Positions 8,812-54,893 of a DNA stretch of 55,436 bases are shown here, one piece after another. The stretch comes from Candidatus Endomicrobium macrotermitis (GTDB taxonomy: Bacteria > Elusimicrobiota > Endomicrobiia > Endomicrobiales > Endomicrobiaceae): NCBI GenBank assembly GCA_031271405.1, contig JAISVT010000012.1:1-55436 (forward strand), read 5' to 3'. The notes below the pieces were generated by a model. It searched no databases and had not been told where the DNA came from. It was given only the letters and a program-made list of their open reading frames with translations. The translations under genes were made by a program, and so were the position numbers. Each line of letters begins with the position of its first letter. Positions within the stretch are counted from its first letter, which is position 1.

Positions 8812-8911
8812 CGGAGAGGGGCTTGCGAAGCAAGAGGGTGAGAAAAGGCAATCCCTCGTCCGAGGCTTTGCTTCACCTTCTCCCGCAAGGGGAGAAGGTA
8901 AACTGAAGCGG
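8812..8911. repeat. G-rich dispersed palindromic repeat, copy 1
   Basis: GAGAGGGGCTTGCGAAGCAAGAGGG and, inverted, CTTCTCCCGCAAGGGGAGAAGG, so this copy is a two-arm palindrome between the T-box terminator and trpE. Parts match copies at 13277 and 16567. It carries no open frame of note. Confidence 0.6.
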
Positions 8912-9023: not shown

Positions 9024-10493
9024 ATGCTTAAACCGTCAATTGAAGAATCAAAAAAATATTTTGAAGAATATACCGTAGTTCCGGTATGTAAAGAAATTTT
9101 TGCCGATATAAAAACTTCGGTGGAAATCCTTAAGATTTTTATGAAAGAGAATAAAAAATGCTATCTGCTTGAAAGCGTTGACAGCGGCGAAAACTGGGGC
9201 AGGTACTCTTTTTTGGGTTTTGATCCTAAACTTACCGTAAGATGCAATGACGCAGCGGTAACGGTAAATAACGGCTCGGAACGCAAAATCGAGACGAACG
9301 AACCGGTAAAAGTTTTAAGGGAAATTTTAGCGGAATACAAAAGCCCGCAAATGGAATATATGCCGCCTTTTACGGGCGGGCTTGTAGGATACTTCTCCTA
9401 CGATTACGTAAAATACGTTGAGAAATCTTTGAAGCTTGAAAACAGAAATGCGGAAAATTTCGACGATTTTTATCTTATGCTTTTCGATAAAGTCATAGCG
9501 TTTGACCATTTCAGGCAGAAGATTTTTATAATAGCAAACGTCGCGGTAAAAGATTTTGAAAGCAATTATAAAAAAGCCGAGGAAGATATAAAAAATACGG
9601 AAGCCCTTATAAAATCCTGTTCCCCTGACTACGCCGTCAAGTCGGGTCTTAAATCGGATTTAAGGCTGCTTCACAATAAAGACGAGTTCGGCGCTATGGT
9701 TGAAAAAATAAAAAGCCATATACGCGAAGGCGATATTTTTCAAGCCGTTATTTCAAACGGACTGGAAGCCGATTTTGACGGAAATCTTTTCCAAACGTAC
9801 AGGGCGCTGAGAACAATAAATCCGTCGCCGTATATGTTTTTTGTCAATTTCGGCGACGTCCAGCTTGCCGGCGCTTCGCCTGAAACGCTTGTGACGCTAA
9901 AAAACGGAGAACTTAAAAATTACGCTCTTGCCGGAACCGTCAAACGCGGGCAGAACGCCGAAGAAGACGAAGCGCTTATATCCGCTCTGCTGAAAGACGA
10001 GAAAGAGCTTTCCGAACACAATATGCTTGTAGATTTGGGCAGAAACGATTTGGGAAAAATCAGCGAGTTCGGTTCGGTAAAAGTCAGCGAATATATGAAA
10101 ATTTTAAAACTTTCGCATGTAAGCCATATAGCGTCCGCGATAACGTCGAAAATGCAAAAAGGATTTGACGGTTTTGACGCTATTTCCGCGGTGCTTCCGG
10201 CCGGCACGCTTTCCGGCGCGCCGAAAGTCAAAGCGTGCGAAATAATAAATTCGCTTGAAAAACACAAACGCGGAACTTACGGCGGAGCAATAGGTTATAT
10301 AGATTTTGCGGGAAATATGGATATGTGCATAGCGATAAGAATGGCGAAACTTCAAAACGGGAAAGTTTACATACAGGCCGGCGCCGGAATTGTCGCGGAC
10401 AGCGTTGCGGAAAAAGAATTTCAGGAATGCCTTAACAAAGCTCAGGCAGTTGTAGAAGCCGTAAAAACGGCTGACGCCCGGGAGGATATATGA
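9024..10493 (+). CDS. trpE: anthranilate synthase component I
   Basis: A 489-residue TrpE, which makes anthranilate from chorismate with ammonia supplied by TrpG. The N-terminal domain has the LLES motif (in CYLLESVDSG) that binds feedback tryptophan. The C-terminal chorismate domain has ASPETLVTLKNG, the LAGTVKRG block, LVDLGRNDLG and GAPKVKACEII. The ATG at 9024 is preferred because AAAGGAGAG ends four bases before it; an ATG at 9006 would add six residues. First gene of the operon under T-box control. It overlaps trpG by four bases (ATGA). Confidence 0.97.
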   Translation: MLKPSIEESKKYFEEYTVVPVCKEIFADIKTSVEILKIFMKENKKCYLLESVDSGENWGRYSFLGFDPKLTVRCNDAAVTVNNGSERKIETNEPVKVLREILAEYKSPQMEYMPPFTGGLVGYFSYDYVKYVEKSLKLENRNAENFDDFYLMLFDKVIAFDHFRQKIFIIANVAVKDFESNYKKAEEDIKNTEALIKSCSPDYAVKSGLKSDLRLLHNKDEFGAMVEKIKSHIREGDIFQAVISNGLEADFDGNLFQTYRALRTINPSPYMFFVNFGDVQLAGASPETLVTLKNGELKNYALAGTVKRGQNAEEDEALISALLKDEKELSEHNMLVDLGRNDLGKISEFGSVKVSEYMKILKLSHVSHIASAITSKMQKGFDGFDAISAVLPAGTLSGAPKVKACEIINSLEKHKRGTYGGAIGYIDFAGNMDMCIAIRMAKLQNGKVYIQAGAGIVADSVAEKEFQECLNKAQAVVEAVKTADAREDI

Positions 10494-11089
10494 TTTTGAT
10501 AATAGACAATTACGACAGTTTTTCTTATAACCTTTACCAGTACGCGGGGATGTTGAACCCGGACGTGAAAGTTATAAAAAATGACGAAATGACCGTAAAA
10601 GAAATAGAAGAATTGAATCCGTCGCATATTATTTTTTCGCCGGGACCCGGACGCCCTTCCGACGCCGGTATAACCGAAGAAGCGGTTTTATATTTTAAAG
10701 ATAAAAAACCGATGCTCGGAATCTGTCTGGGGCATCAGGCCGTATGCGAAGCGTTCGGCGGAAAAATAACTTATGCAAAAACGCTTATGCCCGGTAAAAC
10801 AAGCGGCGTTCACATAGCCAACGGGAGCCCCGTTTTTAAAGGTCTGCCGCCGGTTATGAAAGCGGCAAGATACCATTCTTTGATCGTAGAGCGGGCAAGT
10901 TTGCCGGAAGATCTTCTAATCATCGCCGAAGACGATGACTCGCAGATAATGGGCGTTAAACACCGCAAATACGATTTGTACGGCTTGCAGTTTCATCCGG
11001 AGTCCGTGCTTACCGAAAACGGGTTTTTGATTATTGAAAACTTTTTAAATATCGGTTCTTCAAATCCTGAGAGAGGGAGGCTGAAATGA
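10490..11089 (+). CDS. trpG: anthranilate synthase component II (glutamine amidotransferase)
   Basis: A 199-residue class I glutamine amidotransferase that supplies ammonia to TrpE. The nucleophile cysteine is in the GICLGHQAVCEAFGG block and the His-Glu pair in LQFHPESVLT. The N-terminus IIDNYDSFSYNL is typical. TrpG proteins can also serve p-aminobenzoate synthase; the operon position points to tryptophan. Start overlaps the trpE stop, and the stop overlaps the trpD start by four bases; GAGAGGGAGG provides the trpD ribosome site. Confidence 0.96.
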   Translation: MILIIDNYDSFSYNLYQYAGMLNPDVKVIKNDEMTVKEIEELNPSHIIFSPGPGRPSDAGITEEAVLYFKDKKPMLGICLGHQAVCEAFGGKITYAKTLMPGKTSGVHIANGSPVFKGLPPVMKAARYHSLIVERASLPEDLLIIAEDDDSQIMGVKHRKYDLYGLQFHPESVLTENGFLIIENFLNIGSSNPERGRLK

Positions 11090-12102
11090 TACGCGAAGCC
11101 ATACACGATCTTGTAAACGGGCAGAATCTTTCTCTCGAAGACACGAAAGCCGTTATGAACGAAATAATGGAAGGCAAAGCGACAGATTCGCAAATCGCTT
11201 CTTTTTTGACTTCGATGAGATTAAAAGGCGAGACCATAGACGAAATTACCGCCTGCGCTTCGGTTATGAGGGATAAAAGCCAAAGGCTTAACCCCAAAGG
11301 CGACGTTCTTGACATAGTCGGAACGGGCGGCGACGAACTTTCGACGTTTAACATATCGTCCGTTTCTGCGCTTGTAATTTCGGCAGCGGGCGTGCCTGTG
11401 GCAAAGCACGGAAACAGAAGCGTATCGAGCAAATGCGGAAGCGCGGATTTGTTTGAAGCGCTGGGAGTCAACATAACCCTTACGCCGGCGCAATGTGAAA
11501 CCGTGCTTGAAAAAATCGGGATATGTTTTTTAATGGCGCAGACTTTTCATTCGTCGATGAAATATGTCGCGAAAGTCAGGAAAGAACTCGGTATAAGGAC
11601 GATATTCAATATTTTAGGGCCTCTTGCAAATCCGGCAAAAGCAAGGTATGAGCTTGTAGGCGTTTACGACGAAAACCTTGTGGAGCCTGTGGCGAGAGTT
11701 CTTGCGAATTTGGGGATTAAAAGGGCGATGGTAGTTCACGGGCGCGACGGGCTTGACGAAGCGACCTTGACGGATACCACGACCATATGCGAAGTTAACG
11801 AAGGCAAACTCAACAGCTTTTTTATCACTCCCGAACAGTTCGGATTAAAAAGATGCGGATTATCCGAGCTTATAGGAGGAAATCCGAAAGAAAACGCGGA
11901 AACAGCGCTGAAAATTTTAAACGGGGAAAAAGGGGCTAAAAGGGATATTGTCCTGTTGAATTCCGCAATATCGCTTTATATGTTTTACAACGGCATAACG
12001 CTTAAAGAATGTTTGAAAACGGCGGCGGAAACGATAGACAGCGGAAAGGCTTTAAAAAAACTCAACGACTTTATAGAAATTTCCGGAAGGATGCGGATAT
12101 GA
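11086..12102 (+). CDS. trpD: anthranilate phosphoribosyltransferase
   Basis: A 338-residue enzyme that transfers phosphoribose from PRPP to anthranilate. The PRPP loop GTGGDELSTFNIS is at about 80-92, KHGNRSVSSKCGSAD follows with the anthranilate and metal sites, and the FNILGPLANPA and HGRDGLDEATLT blocks are intact. Length is normal (about 340). Coupled by ATGA overlaps on both sides. Confidence 0.97.
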   Translation: MIREAIHDLVNGQNLSLEDTKAVMNEIMEGKATDSQIASFLTSMRLKGETIDEITACASVMRDKSQRLNPKGDVLDIVGTGGDELSTFNISSVSALVISAAGVPVAKHGNRSVSSKCGSADLFEALGVNITLTPAQCETVLEKIGICFLMAQTFHSSMKYVAKVRKELGIRTIFNILGPLANPAKARYELVGVYDENLVEPVARVLANLGIKRAMVVHGRDGLDEATLTDTTTICEVNEGKLNSFFITPEQFGLKRCGLSELIGGNPKENAETALKILNGEKGAKRDIVLLNSAISLYMFYNGITLKECLKTAAETIDSGKALKKLNDFIEISGRMRI

Positions 12103-12875
12103 TACTGGATAAAATTGTCGCGGCGGCAAAGGCCAGGGTGGAGAGGGAAAAGTCCATTAAGCCGTTTGCCGGCGTAAAACGGGAAGCCGAAAGCAGTAAG
12201 CGGGACATAGTTCCTTTCGGAAAAGCGTTAAAAAAAGGCGATATAAGTTTTATATGCGAAGTAAAAAAGGCATCGCCGTCAAAAGGGCTTATATCTGCGG
12301 ATTTCAAATATAAAGACATCGCCGCGGATTACGAGTCCGCGGGCGCGGACTCGATTTCGGTTCTTACCGAGCCGGACTTCTTTTTAGGCGGAAACGAATA
12401 TCTTACGGAAATAAAAAAAGAAACGAAGCTCCCGGTTTTAAGAAAAGATTTTATAATCGACGCGTATCAGATATACGAAGCCAAAAATATCGGAGCCGAC
12501 GCGGTTCTTCTGATATGCGCGGCTTTGGATTTTGACGTTTTGAAAAAGTTTTTGGAAATTGCGCGCGCCATAGGCTTATCGTGCCTTGCGGAAGCGCACG
12601 ATGAAAAAGAAATTGAAACGGTCTTGAAAGCCGGCGCGGAAATTGTCGGCGTAAACAACCGGAATTTAAAAACTTTCGAAGTCAATATAAATAACAGCGT
12701 AAATTTGAGAAAATACGTTCCCGCGGATAAAATATTCGTTTCCGAAAGCGGGATTAAAACAAGAGAACACGTACAAGCCTTGAGAGACAATAAAATAGAC
12801 GCCGTTTTGATAGGCGAAGAACTTATGAGAAGCGGGAATGTGAAAGAAAAGATGAGAGAGCTGAGAGGTAAGTAG
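12099..12875 (+). CDS. trpC: indole-3-glycerol phosphate synthase
   Basis: A 258-residue (beta/alpha)8 enzyme that closes the indole ring. Diagnostic blocks are FICEVKKASPSKGLI near residue 50, ADSISVLTEPDFFLG, LRKDFIIDAYQIYEA, VGVNNRNLKTFEV and FVSESGI. An in-frame ATG at 12009 lies deep inside trpD; the start at 12099 fits the family length and forms an ATGA overlap with trpD. Not fused to TrpF. Confidence 0.97.
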   Translation: MILDKIVAAAKARVEREKSIKPFAGVKREAESSKRDIVPFGKALKKGDISFICEVKKASPSKGLISADFKYKDIAADYESAGADSISVLTEPDFFLGGNEYLTEIKKETKLPVLRKDFIIDAYQIYEAKNIGADAVLLICAALDFDVLKKFLEIARAIGLSCLAEAHDEKEIETVLKAGAEIVGVNNRNLKTFEVNINNSVNLRKYVPADKIFVSESGIKTREHVQALRDNKIDAVLIGEELMRSGNVKEKMRELRGK

Positions 12876-12945
12876 CGGTTTGCCGTAGTCAGATGTAAAA
12901 ATGGATTCCGTTTTTCAACGGAATGGCGGCATGCAGGGAGTTAAA

Positions 12946-13584
12946 ATGTCTAAAATCAAAATATGCGGGCTTAAAAGGGAAGAAGACATAAATTACGTAA
13001 ACGAAACGAAACCCGATTTCGCGGGTTTTGTTTTTGCGGGCGCCAAAAGGAAAATAGATTTTAAAACCGCCGAAAAATTTAAATCTTTATTAAGCAAAGA
13101 CATAAAATCCGCAGGCGTTTTCGCAAACGAAAAAATCGAAAACATATCAGCTTTGCATAAAGACAAAATTATAGATTTAATCCAGCTTCACGGCGAAGAA
13201 GGCGAAGGCTATATAAAAGAGCTGAAAGATAAAACCGGCGCTATTATTATTAAAACGGTAAAATTTCGCGCGCATTTCCCCCCGCCCCTTGCGGGAGAGG
13301 GACTTGTGAAGCGAGAGGGCGATGGGTTGCCCGTGAAAGCCGATTTCCTTCTTTTCGATTCCGAAACGGGCGGCAGCGGCAAAACTTTCGACTGGCGTTT
13401 AATAAAAGATTATCCGAAACCGTTTTTTCTTGCCGGCGGAATAAATGCGGATAATATTTCAGAAGCCTTAAAATTAAACCCTTACTGCATAGATTTGAGC
13501 AGCGGCGTTGAAACTGGCGGCGCGAAAGATTTCGATAAGATAAAAAAAATAATAGAGATTGTCAGAAAATATAAACAATTATAG
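12946..13584 (+). CDS. trpF: phosphoribosylanthranilate isomerase with an in-frame repeat insertion
   Basis: A 212-residue TrpF, which isomerises phosphoribosylanthranilate before the TrpC step. The start MSKIKICGLK carries the catalytic cysteine C7; AGGGAG precedes it, whereas the longer frame from 12901 has no ribosome site. The general acid aspartate is in LLFDSETGGSGKTFDW (near D138) and the phosphate loop is FFLAGGI. Between KTVK and KADF, residues about 107-130 (with FPPPLAGEGL) are encoded by a dispersed G-rich repeat found elsewhere between genes. In other TrpF proteins this region forms the helix after strand 5. The frame stays open on both sides, so the protein is probably made; its activity is uncertain. 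Confidence 0.93.
   Translation: MSKIKICGLKREEDINYVNETKPDFAGFVFAGAKRKIDFKTAEKFKSLLSKDIKSAGVFANEKIENISALHKDKIIDLIQLHGEEGEGYIKELKDKTGAIIIKTVKFRAHFPPPLAGEGLVKREGDGLPVKADFLLFDSETGGSGKTFDWRLIKDYPKPFFLAGGINADNISEALKLNPYCIDLSSGVETGGAKDFDKIKKIIEIVRKYKQL
13277..13328. repeat. G-rich dispersed repeat, copy 2, inside trpF
   Basis: The core GCCCCTTGCGGGAGAGGGAC plus TTG is identical to copy 3 at 16577-16599, and the following GAAGCGAGAGGG matches AAAGCAAGAGGG there with few changes. Here it is read in frame as part of TrpF. Confidence 0.8.
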
Positions 13585-13588
13585 CCGT

Positions 13589-13687
13589 GTCATGCCGGGC
13601 GAAACGGCGCAGCCGTTAAGCCGGAACATCTGCCTTTTACGGCAGACCCGTTCGGCTTCGGAACAAAGTTCCTTCGCTCAGGGTGAC
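13589..13687. repeat. GTCAT/GTGAC-bounded repeat between trpF and trpB
   Basis: Starts GTCATGCCGGGCG and ends CTCAGGGTGAC, with an internal hairpin TGCCTTTTACGGCA. It fills almost the whole trpF-trpB gap inside the operon. Related elements with GTCAT and RTGAC ends occur at 7422, 18098, 45646, 48065 and 48981. Confidence 0.65.
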
Positions 13688-13703
13688 AGAAAAAGGAGCA
13701 AAT

Positions 13704-14891
13704 ATGTCAAAAAAAGGAAAATACGGAATACACGGCGGGCAATATATTCCCGAAACTCTTATGAATGCCGTAAACGAACTTGAAAAAGCTTACGGTTATT
13801 ATAAAAACGATAAAATTTTTAACGCCGAACTTGAAACTTTGTTTAACGATTACGCGGGCAGGCCTTCAAGGCTTTATTATGCCGAAAATCTGACCGAAAA
13901 ACTTGGCGGCGCAAAAATCTATTTAAAAAGGGAAGATTTAAACCATACGGGTTCCCACAAAATAAACAATGTTTTGGGGCAGACCCTGCTTGCGAAAAAA
14001 ATGGGTAAAAAAAGAATAATTGCCGAGACAGGCGCGGGGCAGCACGGGGTAGCCGCGGCGACTGCAGCTGCTTTGCTCGGTTTGGAATGCGAAGTGTTTA
14101 TGGGCGAAGAAGACACGCAAAGACAGTCGCTAAACGTATTCCGCATGCAGCTGCTGGGCGCTAAAGTTCATCCGGTAAAAAGCGGCGCGAAAACTTTAAA
14201 AGACGCGACAAGCGAAGCGATGAGGGAATGGACAAGAAGGGTTGACGATACTCTTTATGTCATAGGTTCCGTTATGGGGCCGCATCCGTTTCCGGAAATA
14301 GTAAGGGATTTTCAAAGTGTCATAGGAAAAGAAATAAAAAGTCAGCTGCTTGAAAAAGAAGGAAAACTGCCTGACGCCGTTATTGCCTGCGTAGGAGGCG
14401 GCTCTAACGCTATGGGGACTTTTTATGACTTCATAGGAGATAAAAACGTAAAGCTTATAGGCTGCGAAGCCGCCGGAAAAGGCGTCGATACCCCGGAAAC
14501 GGCTGCTACCATAGCTACGGGAAGAACGGGAATATTTCACGGGATGAAATCTTATTTTTGCCAGACCGTAAACGGCCAGATCGTTCCCGTATATTCCATT
14601 TCCGCAGGGCTTGATTATCCCGGCATAGGCCCCGAGCATTCTTATTTGCACGATATAAAAAGAGCCGAATATGTTCCGGTGACTGACGCGCAGGCGGTAG
14701 AAGCGTTTGAGCTTTTATCGCGTACCGAAGGAATAATCCCGGCGATAGAATCCGCGCATGCGGTTTATTACGCGGCAAAAATCGCGCCGGAAATGAAAAA
14801 GGACGAAACAATAGTCGTTACTCTTTCGGGAAGAGGGGACAAAGACGCCGCTATGATCGCAAAGTATAAAGGAGTCAATATAAATGAATAA
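13704..14891 (+). CDS. trpB: tryptophan synthase beta chain
   Basis: A 395-residue TrpB1-type enzyme, which condenses indole with serine using PLP. The Schiff-base lysine is K86 in HTGSHKINN. The GAGQHGVA block, the phosphate-binding GGGSNA and the C-terminal [10 protein letters not shown] are intact. The ATG at 13704 follows AAAAAGGAG; an ATG-like start at 13683 lies in repeat sequence. Overlaps trpA by eight bases. Confidence 0.97.
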
Positions 14892-15669
14892 AATATCCGA
14901 AATTTTTAAAAATAAAAAATGCCTTATAACTTATCTTACCGCAGGCGATCCGTCGCTCGATAAAACCGAAGAATTTATAGTTTCGCTGGCAAAAAACGGC
15001 GCGGATCTGATAGAAATAGGCATACCGTTTTCGGATCCCGTAGCGGAAGGGGAAGTCATACAAAACGCTATGGCAAGGGCGCTTTCCGAAAATATCGGTT
15101 TGGACGATATTTTCAATATGGTTTCGAGCGTCGTTAAAAAAATATCCGTTCCGCTTGCTTTTATGACATATTTAAACCCGCTGCTTACTTACGGTTACGA
15201 TAAATTTTTTAAGAGGTGCAAAGAAACCGGCATAGAGGCAATAATCGTTCCGGATATGCCGTTTGAGGAGCAGGATGAAATTAAAGAATTTACCGGCAAA
15301 TACGGCGTAACGATAATCACTTTGATCGCCCCTACGTCTTTGGAAAGAATAGAAAAACTTGCAAAAAACGCCGAAGGCTTTATTTATCTGGTTTCGTCTT
15401 TGGGCGTTACCGGCACTCGCAGCGAAATCACTACCGATATAAATTCTATCGTGTCTAAGATAAAACAAATTACGGACGTTCCCGTCGCCGTAGGTTTCGG
15501 CATTTCAACCGGAAAACAGGCAAAAGATATGACCGAATCCGCCGACGGCGCGATCATCGGCAGCGCGATAGTAAAAATAATAGCCGAACACAAAGAAAAC
15601 GCCGCTGCGAAAATAGCAGGGTTTGTTTCGGAAGTTAAAACGGCGGTTAACGGTTCAAGAAGAAGATAA
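14884..15669 (+). CDS. trpA: tryptophan synthase alpha chain
   Basis: A 261-residue TrpA that cleaves indole-3-glycerol phosphate and passes indole to TrpB. The catalytic glutamate (E49 in E. coli) is E44 in [12 protein letters not shown]. At the place of the second acid (D60 in E. coli) the sequence is VAEGEVIQ, with Glu instead of Asp, a conservative change. Other blocks are [11 protein letters not shown] and GFGIST. Last gene of the T-box operon; a hairpin follows. Confidence 0.96.
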
Positions 15670-16566: not shown

Positions 16567-16622
16567 TATTCCCTCGCCCCTTGCGGGAGAGGGACTTGCA
16601 AAGCAAGAGGGTGAGGGGTACC
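16567..16622. repeat. G-rich dispersed repeat, copy 3
   Basis: CCCTCGCCCCTTGCGGGAGA at 16571-16590 continues into GGGACTTGCAAAGCAAGAGGGTGAGGGG; it folds into a palindrome and matches the insert inside trpF. Lies between the two genes of the radical SAM pair. Confidence 0.75.
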
Positions 16623-16686: not shown

Positions 16687-18000
16687 TCAAGTGCGCAACG
16701 GCAAACCCGGGAGCGGCAGACCGGCCGTTTGTAAATTCTCCCTAAACAATTCAAGCTGTGAAGGCGAAAAGGAATCTTTATACATAGTAAGTTCCTGTTT
16801 TGACATCAAAGCCTGCAAGATTTGATCTTTTAGTATTATAAGGCCGTCAAATTGTTTTCCGCGGCACACGATGAAATATTTTGCGCGCTTCAGCACTACG
16901 CCGAGTTTTTTTAACGCGTCAAAATCGAGCGCCGAATATCTCCGCGCGGCTATTATTTTTAACGCGCTTCTGACGCCTATGCCGGGAACTCTCAAGAGTT
17001 CGTCTTTTGACGCCTTGTTTACTTCAACGGGGAAAAATTCAGGGTGGTTGACCGCCCAGTTGCATTTGGGATCTATAAAAGGATTGAAATTCGGGGTTTT
17101 TTCATCCAAAATTTCATCCGCGCTGAAATTGTAATAACGCATAAGCCAGTCCGCCTGGTAAAGCCTGTGTTCTCTGAGCAGAGGCGGTTTAAAATCTACG
17201 GACGGCAAAAGTTTATCCGATAATACGGGAGTATAAGCCGAAAAGAAAACTCTTTTTAATTTGTATTTTTTGTACAGATTTTCCGTAAGCTTTAAAATAT
17301 GGTTATCGGTTTCGGGAGTGGCTCCTATAATCATCTGCGTGCTTTGTCCCGCCGGCACAAATTTCTGAACTTTTTTATAGACCGTCAGTTCTTTGGTATT
17401 TTCCGAAATATTTTCTTTTATGAAATTCATCGGCGCAAAAATGGAATTTTTACTTTTGTCGGGAGCTAAAAGCTGCAAACTGTTTTGCGAAGGCATTTCT
17501 ATGTTTACGCTCATTCTGTCGGCTAAAAGCCCCAGCTGCCTTAAAAGTTTTCCGTCCGCTCCCGGTATTGCTTTTGCGTGTATGTATCCGTTAAAGCGGT
17601 GAGTATGCCTTAAAATGCTTAACGTTTTTATCATAAGCTCGCAGGTATAGTCCGGGTTTTTAATCACGCCCGAACTTAAAAACAGCCCTTCTATATAATT
17701 TCGTTTATAAAATTGTATAGTCAGATCGGCAAGTTCTTCGGGCAGAAACATTGTTCTTTTTATATCGTTCGATTTTCTGTTAAAACAATATTTGCAGTCG
17801 TAAACGCACACGTTTGTCAAAAGCACTTTCAAAAGCGAAACGCATCGCCCGTCTGCGGCAAAAGTGTGGCATATGCCGCAGGGGACTTTGCTTCCCATGC
17901 CGCCGGTTTCGCAGGAGTTTTGTTCCGTGCCGCTTGAAGTGCAGGCAACGTCGTATTTTGCCGCCGCTCCGAGAATTGAAAGTTTTTCAAAAATGTCCAT
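16687..18000 (-). CDS. putative DNA modification/repair radical SAM protein (TIGR03916 type)
   Basis: A 437-residue radical SAM protein. The [4Fe-4S] motif CVYDCKYC gives C65, C69 and C72. The N-terminal block MDIFEKLSILGAAAKYDVAC with extra cysteines (C20, C30, C41, C44) is typical of the TIGR03916 family. The C-terminal part has a helix-hairpin-helix (LLRVPGIGVRSALKIIAARR), which in other proteins binds DNA backbone. The start at 18000 is chosen from the family N-terminus; the frame stays open upstream to 18144 but that part is repeat sequence. No reaction has been shown for the family. Its usual partner is downstream at 15735-16487. Confidence 0.88.
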   Translation of the reverse strand: MDIFEKLSILGAAAKYDVACTSSGTEQNSCETGGMGSKVPCGICHTFAADGRCVSLLKVLLTNVCVYDCKYCFNRKSNDIKRTMFLPEELADLTIQFYKRNYIEGLFLSSGVIKNPDYTCELMIKTLSILRHTHRFNGYIHAKAIPGADGKLLRQLGLLADRMSVNIEMPSQNSLQLLAPDKSKNSIFAPMNFIKENISENTKELTVYKKVQKFVPAGQSTQMIIGATPETDNHILKLTENLYKKYKLKRVFFSAYTPVLSDKLLPSVDFKPPLLREHRLYQADWLMRYYNFSADEILDEKTPNFNPFIDPKCNWAVNHPEFFPVEVNKASKDELLRVPGIGVRSALKIIAARRYSALDFDALKKLGVVLKRAKYFIVCRGKQFDGLIILKDQILQALMSKQELTMYKDSFSPSQLELFRENLQTAGLPLPGLPLRT

Positions 18001-18299
18001 GCGTAAAGTATGGCAAATTCTTAAAAGGAATACAAGCGTAATCCCGAAAAGGCAATTATAAAACGGAATTATCCCGTTATGAGCATTAGTAAAGTCCGTC
18101 ATCCTGCGCGCAGCCGCAGGATCTGTAAATAACGGCTTTTCCATAGACCCTGCGGGAGACTTCGTCTCCGCGGGGTGACAACTGCCTGTCAGGGGATAAT
18201 TCAGTTATAAATTACAAATTGCGAATTTCGGATAAAAATAGACAAAACGGCTGTTAAAAATATATAATAAGCGCGAAGTTAAAACCGTTGAGGGATAAA
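18001..18299. other. divergent intergenic region with a GTCAT/GTGAC repeat
   Basis: Between divergent genes. A repeat at 18098-18179 starts GTCATCCTGCGCG and ends CGCGGGGTGAC, with internal hairpins CCTGCGCGCAGCCGCAGG and GGAGACTTCGTCTCC. After it is AT-rich sequence that should hold the antiporter promoter; TATAATAA at 18261-18268 is a possible -10. Confidence 0.5.
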
Positions 18300-54361: not shown

Positions 54362-54420
54362 CCTCCAATGGCTATAATGGGAGCAGGTTTGCCAACCGCT
54401 ATCCAAGAAGCCAAAGGAGG
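54362..54420 (+). promoter_or_regulatory. hairpin masking the tnpA ribosome site
   Basis: CCTCCAATGGCT (54362-54373) is complementary, with two mismatches, to AGCCAAAGGAGG (54409-54420), which contains the Shine-Dalgarno of tnpA. A TATAAT overlaps the left arm (54373-54378), so only transcripts started upstream would fold it. This fits the known limit on IS200 translation and on read-in transcription. Confidence 0.65.
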
Positions 54421-54428
54421 CTCAAGAA

Positions 54429-54893
54429 ATGAAAGACAATGCAAGTTTAGCACACACAAAGCGGAATTGCAAATACCACATAGTATTTTCGCCAAAGTTT
54501 CGCCGAAAAGAGATATATGGGAAAGTAAAGAAAGACATAGGCGTAATGATAAGAAAGCTCTGCGTTTACAAGAGCGTAGAAATAATTGAAGCAGAATTAT
54601 GCAAGGATCATATACACATGTTGGTATCGATTCCTCCCAAATATAGTGTATCGCAAATAATGGGGTACCTGAAAGGCAAGAGTAGTTTGATGATATTTGA
54701 AAAGTATGCGAATATGAAATATAAATATGGCAATCGTCACTTTTGGTGTCGCGGTTACTATGTAGATACGGTAGGTCGCAATAAAAAAGTGATAGAAGAT
54801 TACATAAAGAATCAGATGCACGAAGACGTTGTAGCAGAGCAGTTGACGATGAAAGAATTGATAGACCCGTTTACGGGTCAGCAAGTAAGATAA
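54429..54893 (+). CDS. tnpA: IS200/IS605-family transposase TnpA (Y1, HUH)
   Basis: A 154-residue single-strand transposase. The HUH metal site is DHIHMLVSIPP and the catalytic tyrosine lies in the helix VGRNKKVIEDYIKNQ. The start region KRNCKYHIVFSPKFRRK is typical. The frame is complete with AAAGGAGG eight bases before the ATG, so the copy may be active. Confidence 0.95.
   Translation: MKDNASLAHTKRNCKYHIVFSPKFRRKEIYGKVKKDIGVMIRKLCVYKSVEIIEAELCKDHIHMLVSIPPKYSVSQIMGYLKGKSSLMIFEKYANMKYKYGNRHFWCRGYYVDTVGRNKKVIEDYIKNQMHEDVVAEQLTMKELIDPFTGQQVR

Follow-up and report, generated by a model that had tools for sequence, protein, structure and literature searches.

A dispersed palindromic repeat read in frame within trpF of an Endomicrobium genome, and different repeats in the corresponding linker of sister species

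Is part of the phosphoribosylanthranilate isomerase (TrpF) of an Endomicrobium genome encoded by a dispersed repeat, and how would a conserved enzyme have come to carry it? The best-known protein-coding palindromes are those of Rickettsia and Wolbachia. The question is raised by a 55,436-nucleotide stretch of contig JAISVT010000012.1, called the window below, which belongs to a 1.89-Mb, 64-contig draft genome (G000) of Endomicrobium, a genus of termite-gut-type bacteria in the Elusimicrobiota.

A family A repeat copy within trpF

The gene lies in an intact trp operon, trpG-trpD-trpC-trpF-trpB-trpA (10490-15669; open reading frames, with gene names from sequence and order), and the following features locate it.

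12946..13584, + strand: trpF, phosphoribosylanthranilate isomerase, 212 aa (PF00697, E 1.9e-41; PDB TrpF matches by sequence and fold)
13704..14891, + strand: trpB, operon neighbor downstream of trpF (open reading frame; name from sequence and order)
12964..12966, + strand: Cys7 codon of trpF (invariant column, alignment A1)
13357..13359, + strand: Asp138 codon of trpF, first conserved block past the insert (invariant column, alignment A1)

The profile match is full-length, covering residues 4-204 of the protein and positions 1-192 of the 193 in the profile, and a further in-frame ATG is present upstream of the start, at 12901. A preliminary description of this DNA had called the flanking catalytic blocks normal, and in alignment A1 all of them, from K5-I6-C7-G8 through Q80, H82-G83, D138, G143 and G145 to A163-G164-G165, are kept, with C7, D138 and G164-G165 among the invariant positions. 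Cys7 is the known general base of TrpF, and Asp138 the equivalent of its general acid. The nearest TrpFs in named records are those of Candidatus Endomicrobium embiratermitis (71%) and E. labiotermitis (69%). Repeat-like palindromic DNA was also seen in both gaps flanking trpF (12890-12945, GTTTTTCAACGGAATGGCGGCATGCAGGG; 13586-13690, TGTCATGCCGGGCGAAACGGCGCAGCCG...AGGGTGACAG).

The repeat at issue, family A, is a dispersed, near-palindromic (imperfect) unit of ~50 bp in G000, and its copies, aligned by eye, have CCCTCGCCCCTTGCGGGAGAGGGACTTGCAAAGCAAGAGGGTGAGGGG in common. Copies within the window include the following.

13279..13329, + strand: in-frame family A copy in trpF, translated PPPLAGEGLVKREGDGL (whole-genome search, E 1.6e-11 against the intergenic copy)
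13283..13306, + strand: 24-base block CGCCCCTTGCGGGAGAGGGACTTG, identical to 16575-16598 (direct comparison of the trpF and intergenic copies)
16569..16619, + strand: intergenic family A copy, an imperfect fold-back (genome search; DNA MFE -12.9 kcal/mol, z -2.7)
8813..8842, + strand: partial family A copy, intergenic, right half (genome search)

A second partial copy, inverted, was found by genome search at 8865-8898. Comparison of the trpF copy (13279-13330) with the intergenic copy (16571-16622) showed 44 of 52 bases to be identical, and a whole-genome search with the intergenic copy as query returned 40 matches in G000, ~30 of them with E <= 0.008. These matches, together with the E-value of 1.6e-11, indicate that the resemblance is not due to chance. 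The majority of the matches that were inspected lie outside recognizable genes. The repeat occurs both between and within genes of this genome.

The preliminary description had proposed that a dispersed repeat is read in frame in trpF, and the open frame, the PF00697 match and the repeat match all bear this out. Its measurements required correction: the exact block is 24 bases long rather than 23 bases at 16577-16599, and the repeat-derived part of the protein amounts to ~17 residues (codons 112-128) rather than about 24, as the FRAHF and PV within codons 107-130 find no support in any repeat copy. The trpF copy has diverged (88% identical) and folds back more weakly (z -2.0), with the outer fold-back mostly lost, so that it is probably old and its exact ends are uncertain. 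Stop codons are absent from five of the six frames of family A, and likewise from five of six in a second family, B, described below, so that in-frame reading of either comes easily. The flanks of family A copies, read by eye, have a T-rich 5′ side and a T after GGGG, with no clear target-site duplication. Elsewhere in the window, a repeat island at 18062-18204 overlaps the 5′ end of a minus-strand open reading frame (16687-18144) whose true start is probably further downstream, because its first ATG would encode a repeat-derived N-terminus.

An AlphaFold model built from a 12-sequence alignment has the predicted barrel fold (pTM 0.84), with pLDDT mostly >90 in the barrel, and its best PDB match is TrpF of T. 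maritima (1nsj, E 3.7e-16, TM 0.79). The insert is flanked by predicted strand 5 (100-107) and strand 6 (134-139), and pLDDT falls below 50 over residues 110-119 and 121-127; the model of E. labiotermitis TrpF is alike, with low confidence at 110-116. On these models, the insert residues are probably disordered.

The beta5-beta6 linker of TrpF in relatives

The segment that holds the insert was compared across related genomes, 52 of 60 of which gave a TrpF-type match.

13255..13344, + strand: TrpF beta5-beta6 linker, TVKFRAHFPPPLAGEGLVKREGDGLPVKAD, 30 residues (linker comparison; predicted strands 100-107 and 134-139)

Linkers were measured from the Ile-Lys of strand 5 up to strand 6, and some raw values inflated by the search pattern were corrected. 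The TrpF of the window shares with the TrpF/PRAI family (PF00697) its whole-length match, conserved catalytic blocks and barrel fold, and differs from it in this linker, which has 30 residues as compared with 16-24 in most relatives and 29 in G004, a genome of another genus. Alignment with relatives had been set beforehand as a test of the insertion, and the insert residues, including the segment FPPPLAGEG, were absent from all 27 other TrpFs of the family that were compared. Since the DNA as well as the peptide is that of a dispersed repeat and the relatives differ, we conclude that these residues are an insertion, and a normal TrpF helix is ruled out. The further proposal that the repeat replaces the helix after strand 5 holds as to position, between predicted strands 5 and 6, but not as to the loss of a helix: in the family this segment is short to begin with and varies in length, so that there was no long, well-kept helix for the insert to displace.

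All four species of the genus that were compared, a small sample, encode a repeat in this linker, and the repeats are of four different kinds. In E. labiotermitis (G002; L062) the linker reads CHCEEAQCADEAIQ and is encoded by a palindrome unrelated to family A, namely family B (TGTCATTGCGAGG...GACGAAGCAATCCAG), whose copy in this linker (CATTGCGAGG...GACGAAGCAATC) has 19 matches in the G002 genome. In E. embiratermitis (G003) the linker, TGCCGTTAATTCCACTATCCACTCTTCACTCTCC, belongs to a heptanucleotide type, TTCACTC. This type is common across the genus, where each genome has 11-31 exact matches to the triple unit, as compared with 0-4 for the reversed pattern. In G001, a genome of one contig (1,588,979 bases) that we take to be E. 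proavitum, the linker is a CAATTCT array, of which that genome has two further occurrences. Each of the four linkers holds a single repeat family, and no shared remnant was found among them. Family A itself occurs in high numbers in the three other species of the genus (11, 19 and 28 matches) and also in genus g13; in G003 a copy sits just upstream of trpF.

The linkers of G001, G003, G004 and G032 showed seven-base periodicity (p 0.001-0.003), whereas the other 24 TrpF linkers tested did not. Fifteen linkers were also compared with loci that lack trpF. As searches with families A and B had fetched these loci, the set is rich in both; match counts therefore mean little here and the E-values are the evidence. 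The G000 linker had 50 matches to other loci, with a best E of 1e-16, followed by G002 (1.6e-12), G001 (4.7e-12) and G003 (1e-7), and nine linkers without repeat features had no match to these loci better than 5e-4. The heptamers in the linkers of G004 and G032 were not established as dispersed repeats, with linker E-values of 0.004 and 2e-4, about the control range; within those two genomes their exact patterns occur in trpF only, and the G032 pattern also occurs once each in G003 and G027.

Repeats in other genes and the origin of the inserts

The TrpF insert is no isolated case, as the linkers of sister species and other genes hold repeats too. The search for copies inside other genes that the preliminary description had called for found in-frame repeat DNA in five further genes of G000, encoding MnmE, a ketoacyl synthase, Mfd, PdxA and a TPP enzyme. 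MnmE (L013/L164, G000:C29:35634-37160) has ~71 repeat-coded residues between NKTD (G4) and LSAKTG (G5), which are a composite of family A, a third palindrome and heptamers, and in sister species the same loop is filled by family B (E. labiotermitis) or by a heptamer array (G001), with no repeat family assigned to it in G003. The ketoacyl synthase (L020:1104-2441, G000:C58) has ~65 extra repeat-coded residues before LVSSTKA, from an island 83% identical over 174 bp to the MnmE composite. Both inserts appear as gaps between well-aligned blocks in PDB alignments. Mfd (L147:16675-19890, G000:C21) has an in-frame repeat insert after TIKDYF, and in three species (G000, G002 and G030; L147, L092 and L094) different repeats occupy the same place after TIKxYF. 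PdxA has a short in-frame heptamer array, and the TPP enzyme has a family B copy in its inter-domain linker. Inserts in relatives were also found in MiaA (G002) and MiaB (G030). Repeats nest within one another in these genomes: family A, heptamer arrays and the third palindrome are combined in islands in MnmE, in Mfd and between genes.

A census of a 455-kb sample of G000 (24%) gave 105 repeat intervals, as compared with 5 in a reversed-sequence control. Of these, 22 lie in open reading frames and are mostly ankyrin- or Sel1-type protein repeats or chance words; only those in trpF, mfd and pdxA were retained as repeat DNA inserts in conserved genes. Three in 24% of the genome suggests, as a rough estimate, on the order of ten in-gene inserts in the whole. 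Open reading frames for RecO and LspA with N-terminal repeats were set aside as inserts and are probably start-site artefacts. One contig (G000:C59; L149, L150) has ankyrin-repeat and Sel1-type repeat protein genes in tandem.

We consider it probable (about 85%) that family A inserted into trpF and was kept as tolerated linker residues, and that such insertion has recurred in the genus at permissive loops. A short dispersed repeat would have entered trpF in the Endomicrobium lineage of the window and landed in the surface linker between strands 5 and 6, and ~17 extra residues could have been kept on a working enzyme because this segment was already variable in length. Insertions of different repeat families would have occurred repeatedly in the genus, in the TrpF linker and in equivalent loops of MnmE and Mfd. 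As the repeats spread, damaging insertions would be selected against, and copies in frame within permissive surface loops would survive. We infer that the insert is neutrally tolerated, that TrpF activity is retained and that each insertion was independent. The four sister species, each with its own repeat in a single enzyme loop, are a natural series in which to study the cost of an insert and the positions that tolerate one.

In the strongest alternative, a single ancestral repeat opened the TrpF linker and later repeats nested in it or converted it, giving one opening event instead of four. The nesting of repeats in MnmE, Mfd and intergenic islands and the presence of a repeat in the linker of all four species would fit such a history; against it, the four linkers share no remnant and hold one family each, and families A and B are unrelated. 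We regard it as possible but doubtful. A bolder extension is that the TrpF beta5-beta6, MnmE NKxD-SAK and Mfd post-TIKxYF loops are standing docking sites, where repeat families of different origin would replace one another at a pace above that of species divergence; an unrecognized mobilizing system with a preference for existing repeat sequence may be at work. If this were true, segments of protein surface would be exchangeable cassettes of repeat DNA; we think it unlikely.

It could also be that trpF has been neutralized or is decaying and that the repeat persists since a paralogue covers the reaction. A divergent TrpF paralogue of the PRAI family does adjoin hisA, hisF and hisI in G000 (G000:C3:26458-27063; L186:3947-4585) and could relax constraint on trpF. 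Its motifs are altered, however (QFNG, SGQI and DGDSGIE, by reading), and comparable divergent second copies recur in many genomes of the family. Outside the linker, trpF is under purifying selection: dN/dS between the window and G003 is ~0.16, and it is ~0.12 with G002 and ~0.22 with G001. The gene is not visibly decaying because these values (0.12-0.22) show no marked rise over that of the sister pair G003-G002 (0.11), and its catalytic and phosphate-binding blocks and its operon are intact, which makes this explanation improbable.

Recruitment of the insert for a function, whether as an RNA or DNA structure in the trp operon or as a stretch of protein surface useful to TrpF, appears slightly less probable still. 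The reading frame has been kept and G003 has a family A copy immediately upstream of its trpF, but the outer fold-back is mostly gone from the trpF copy of the window, the sister species have unrelated sequences of other lengths at the site, and the AlphaFold model gives the insert no structure. A maintained RNA structure in the operon was rejected, the trpF copy being less palindromic in folding (z -2.0). An artefact, whether a coincidental match or a MAG joining two places through a repeat, is hardly credible even for a 64-contig draft, given the genome E-value, the 24 identical bases, the open frame, the correct order of the genes to either side of trpF and the recurrence of such inserts in independently assembled genomes, the one-contig G001 included.

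Mobilization and comparison with known systems

A search of G000 for Y1 transposases returned a single match, an IS200/IS605-type TnpA (window 54378-54890), and no REP-associated tyrosine transposase. Two of the four genus genomes, both repeat-carrying, have no Y1 transposase, and among the genus genomes a weak REP-type relative occurs in G003 only, where neither family A nor family B lies next to it; RAYT mobilization is thus unsupported. REP elements with RAYT are short, high-copy, imperfect palindromes of a size class similar to the Endomicrobium repeats, but they go with a REP-type Y1 transposase, and none was found in G000. Intragenic MITEs and the enterobacterial RU/ERIC elements resemble the Endomicrobium repeats in being small, non-autonomous and joined in frame to genes (PMC2229807); the terminal inverted repeats with target-site duplication expected of a MITE were not clearly seen by eye for family A.

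We found no report of in-gene repeats for Endomicrobium in the open-access literature, where one may have escaped us, and nothing relevant on the repeat peptides. A 2024 comparative genomics paper on the group uses "repeat" and "palindrom" twice each, as far as its main text goes in passages on CRISPR (PMC11257099).

The closest likeness is to the palindromic elements of Rickettsia (RPE) and Wolbachia (WPE). RPE are described as dispersed palindromes that lie between genes and in frame inside conserved protein genes (PMC2229807, PMC10969869); they have been reported in 19 reading frames (PMC2229807), and a guanylate kinase (Gmk) bearing one is described as translated and active, with a changed substrate affinity (PMC2229807, PMC10969869). 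WPE are described as in-frame palindromic insertions in the housekeeping genes addA, addB and priA without inactivation (PMC4224334; Ogata 2005 therein). The Endomicrobium repeats have in common with both their occurrence between and within genes, in-frame reading where relatives lack the repeat, and palindromic fold-back. Compared by description, RPE are ~105-150 bp and Rickettsia-specific, whereas the Endomicrobium units, in Elusimicrobiota, are ~50 bp or 7-bp arrays; WPE, likewise compared by description, come from a different phylum, and WPE-like regions (~170-840 bases; PMC4224334) are longer. Unlike RPE, the Endomicrobium repeats include different families that have come to occupy a single site of the same gene. 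By analogy, the Endomicrobium repeats appear to behave like RPE and WPE, but as their units differ in size, we do not count them as members of either. They depart from the known systems in phylum, in the shortness of the repeats and in the repeated use of a single site by families unrelated to each other. A second, unrelated host-associated lineage argues for a general route from repeat DNA to protein sequence.
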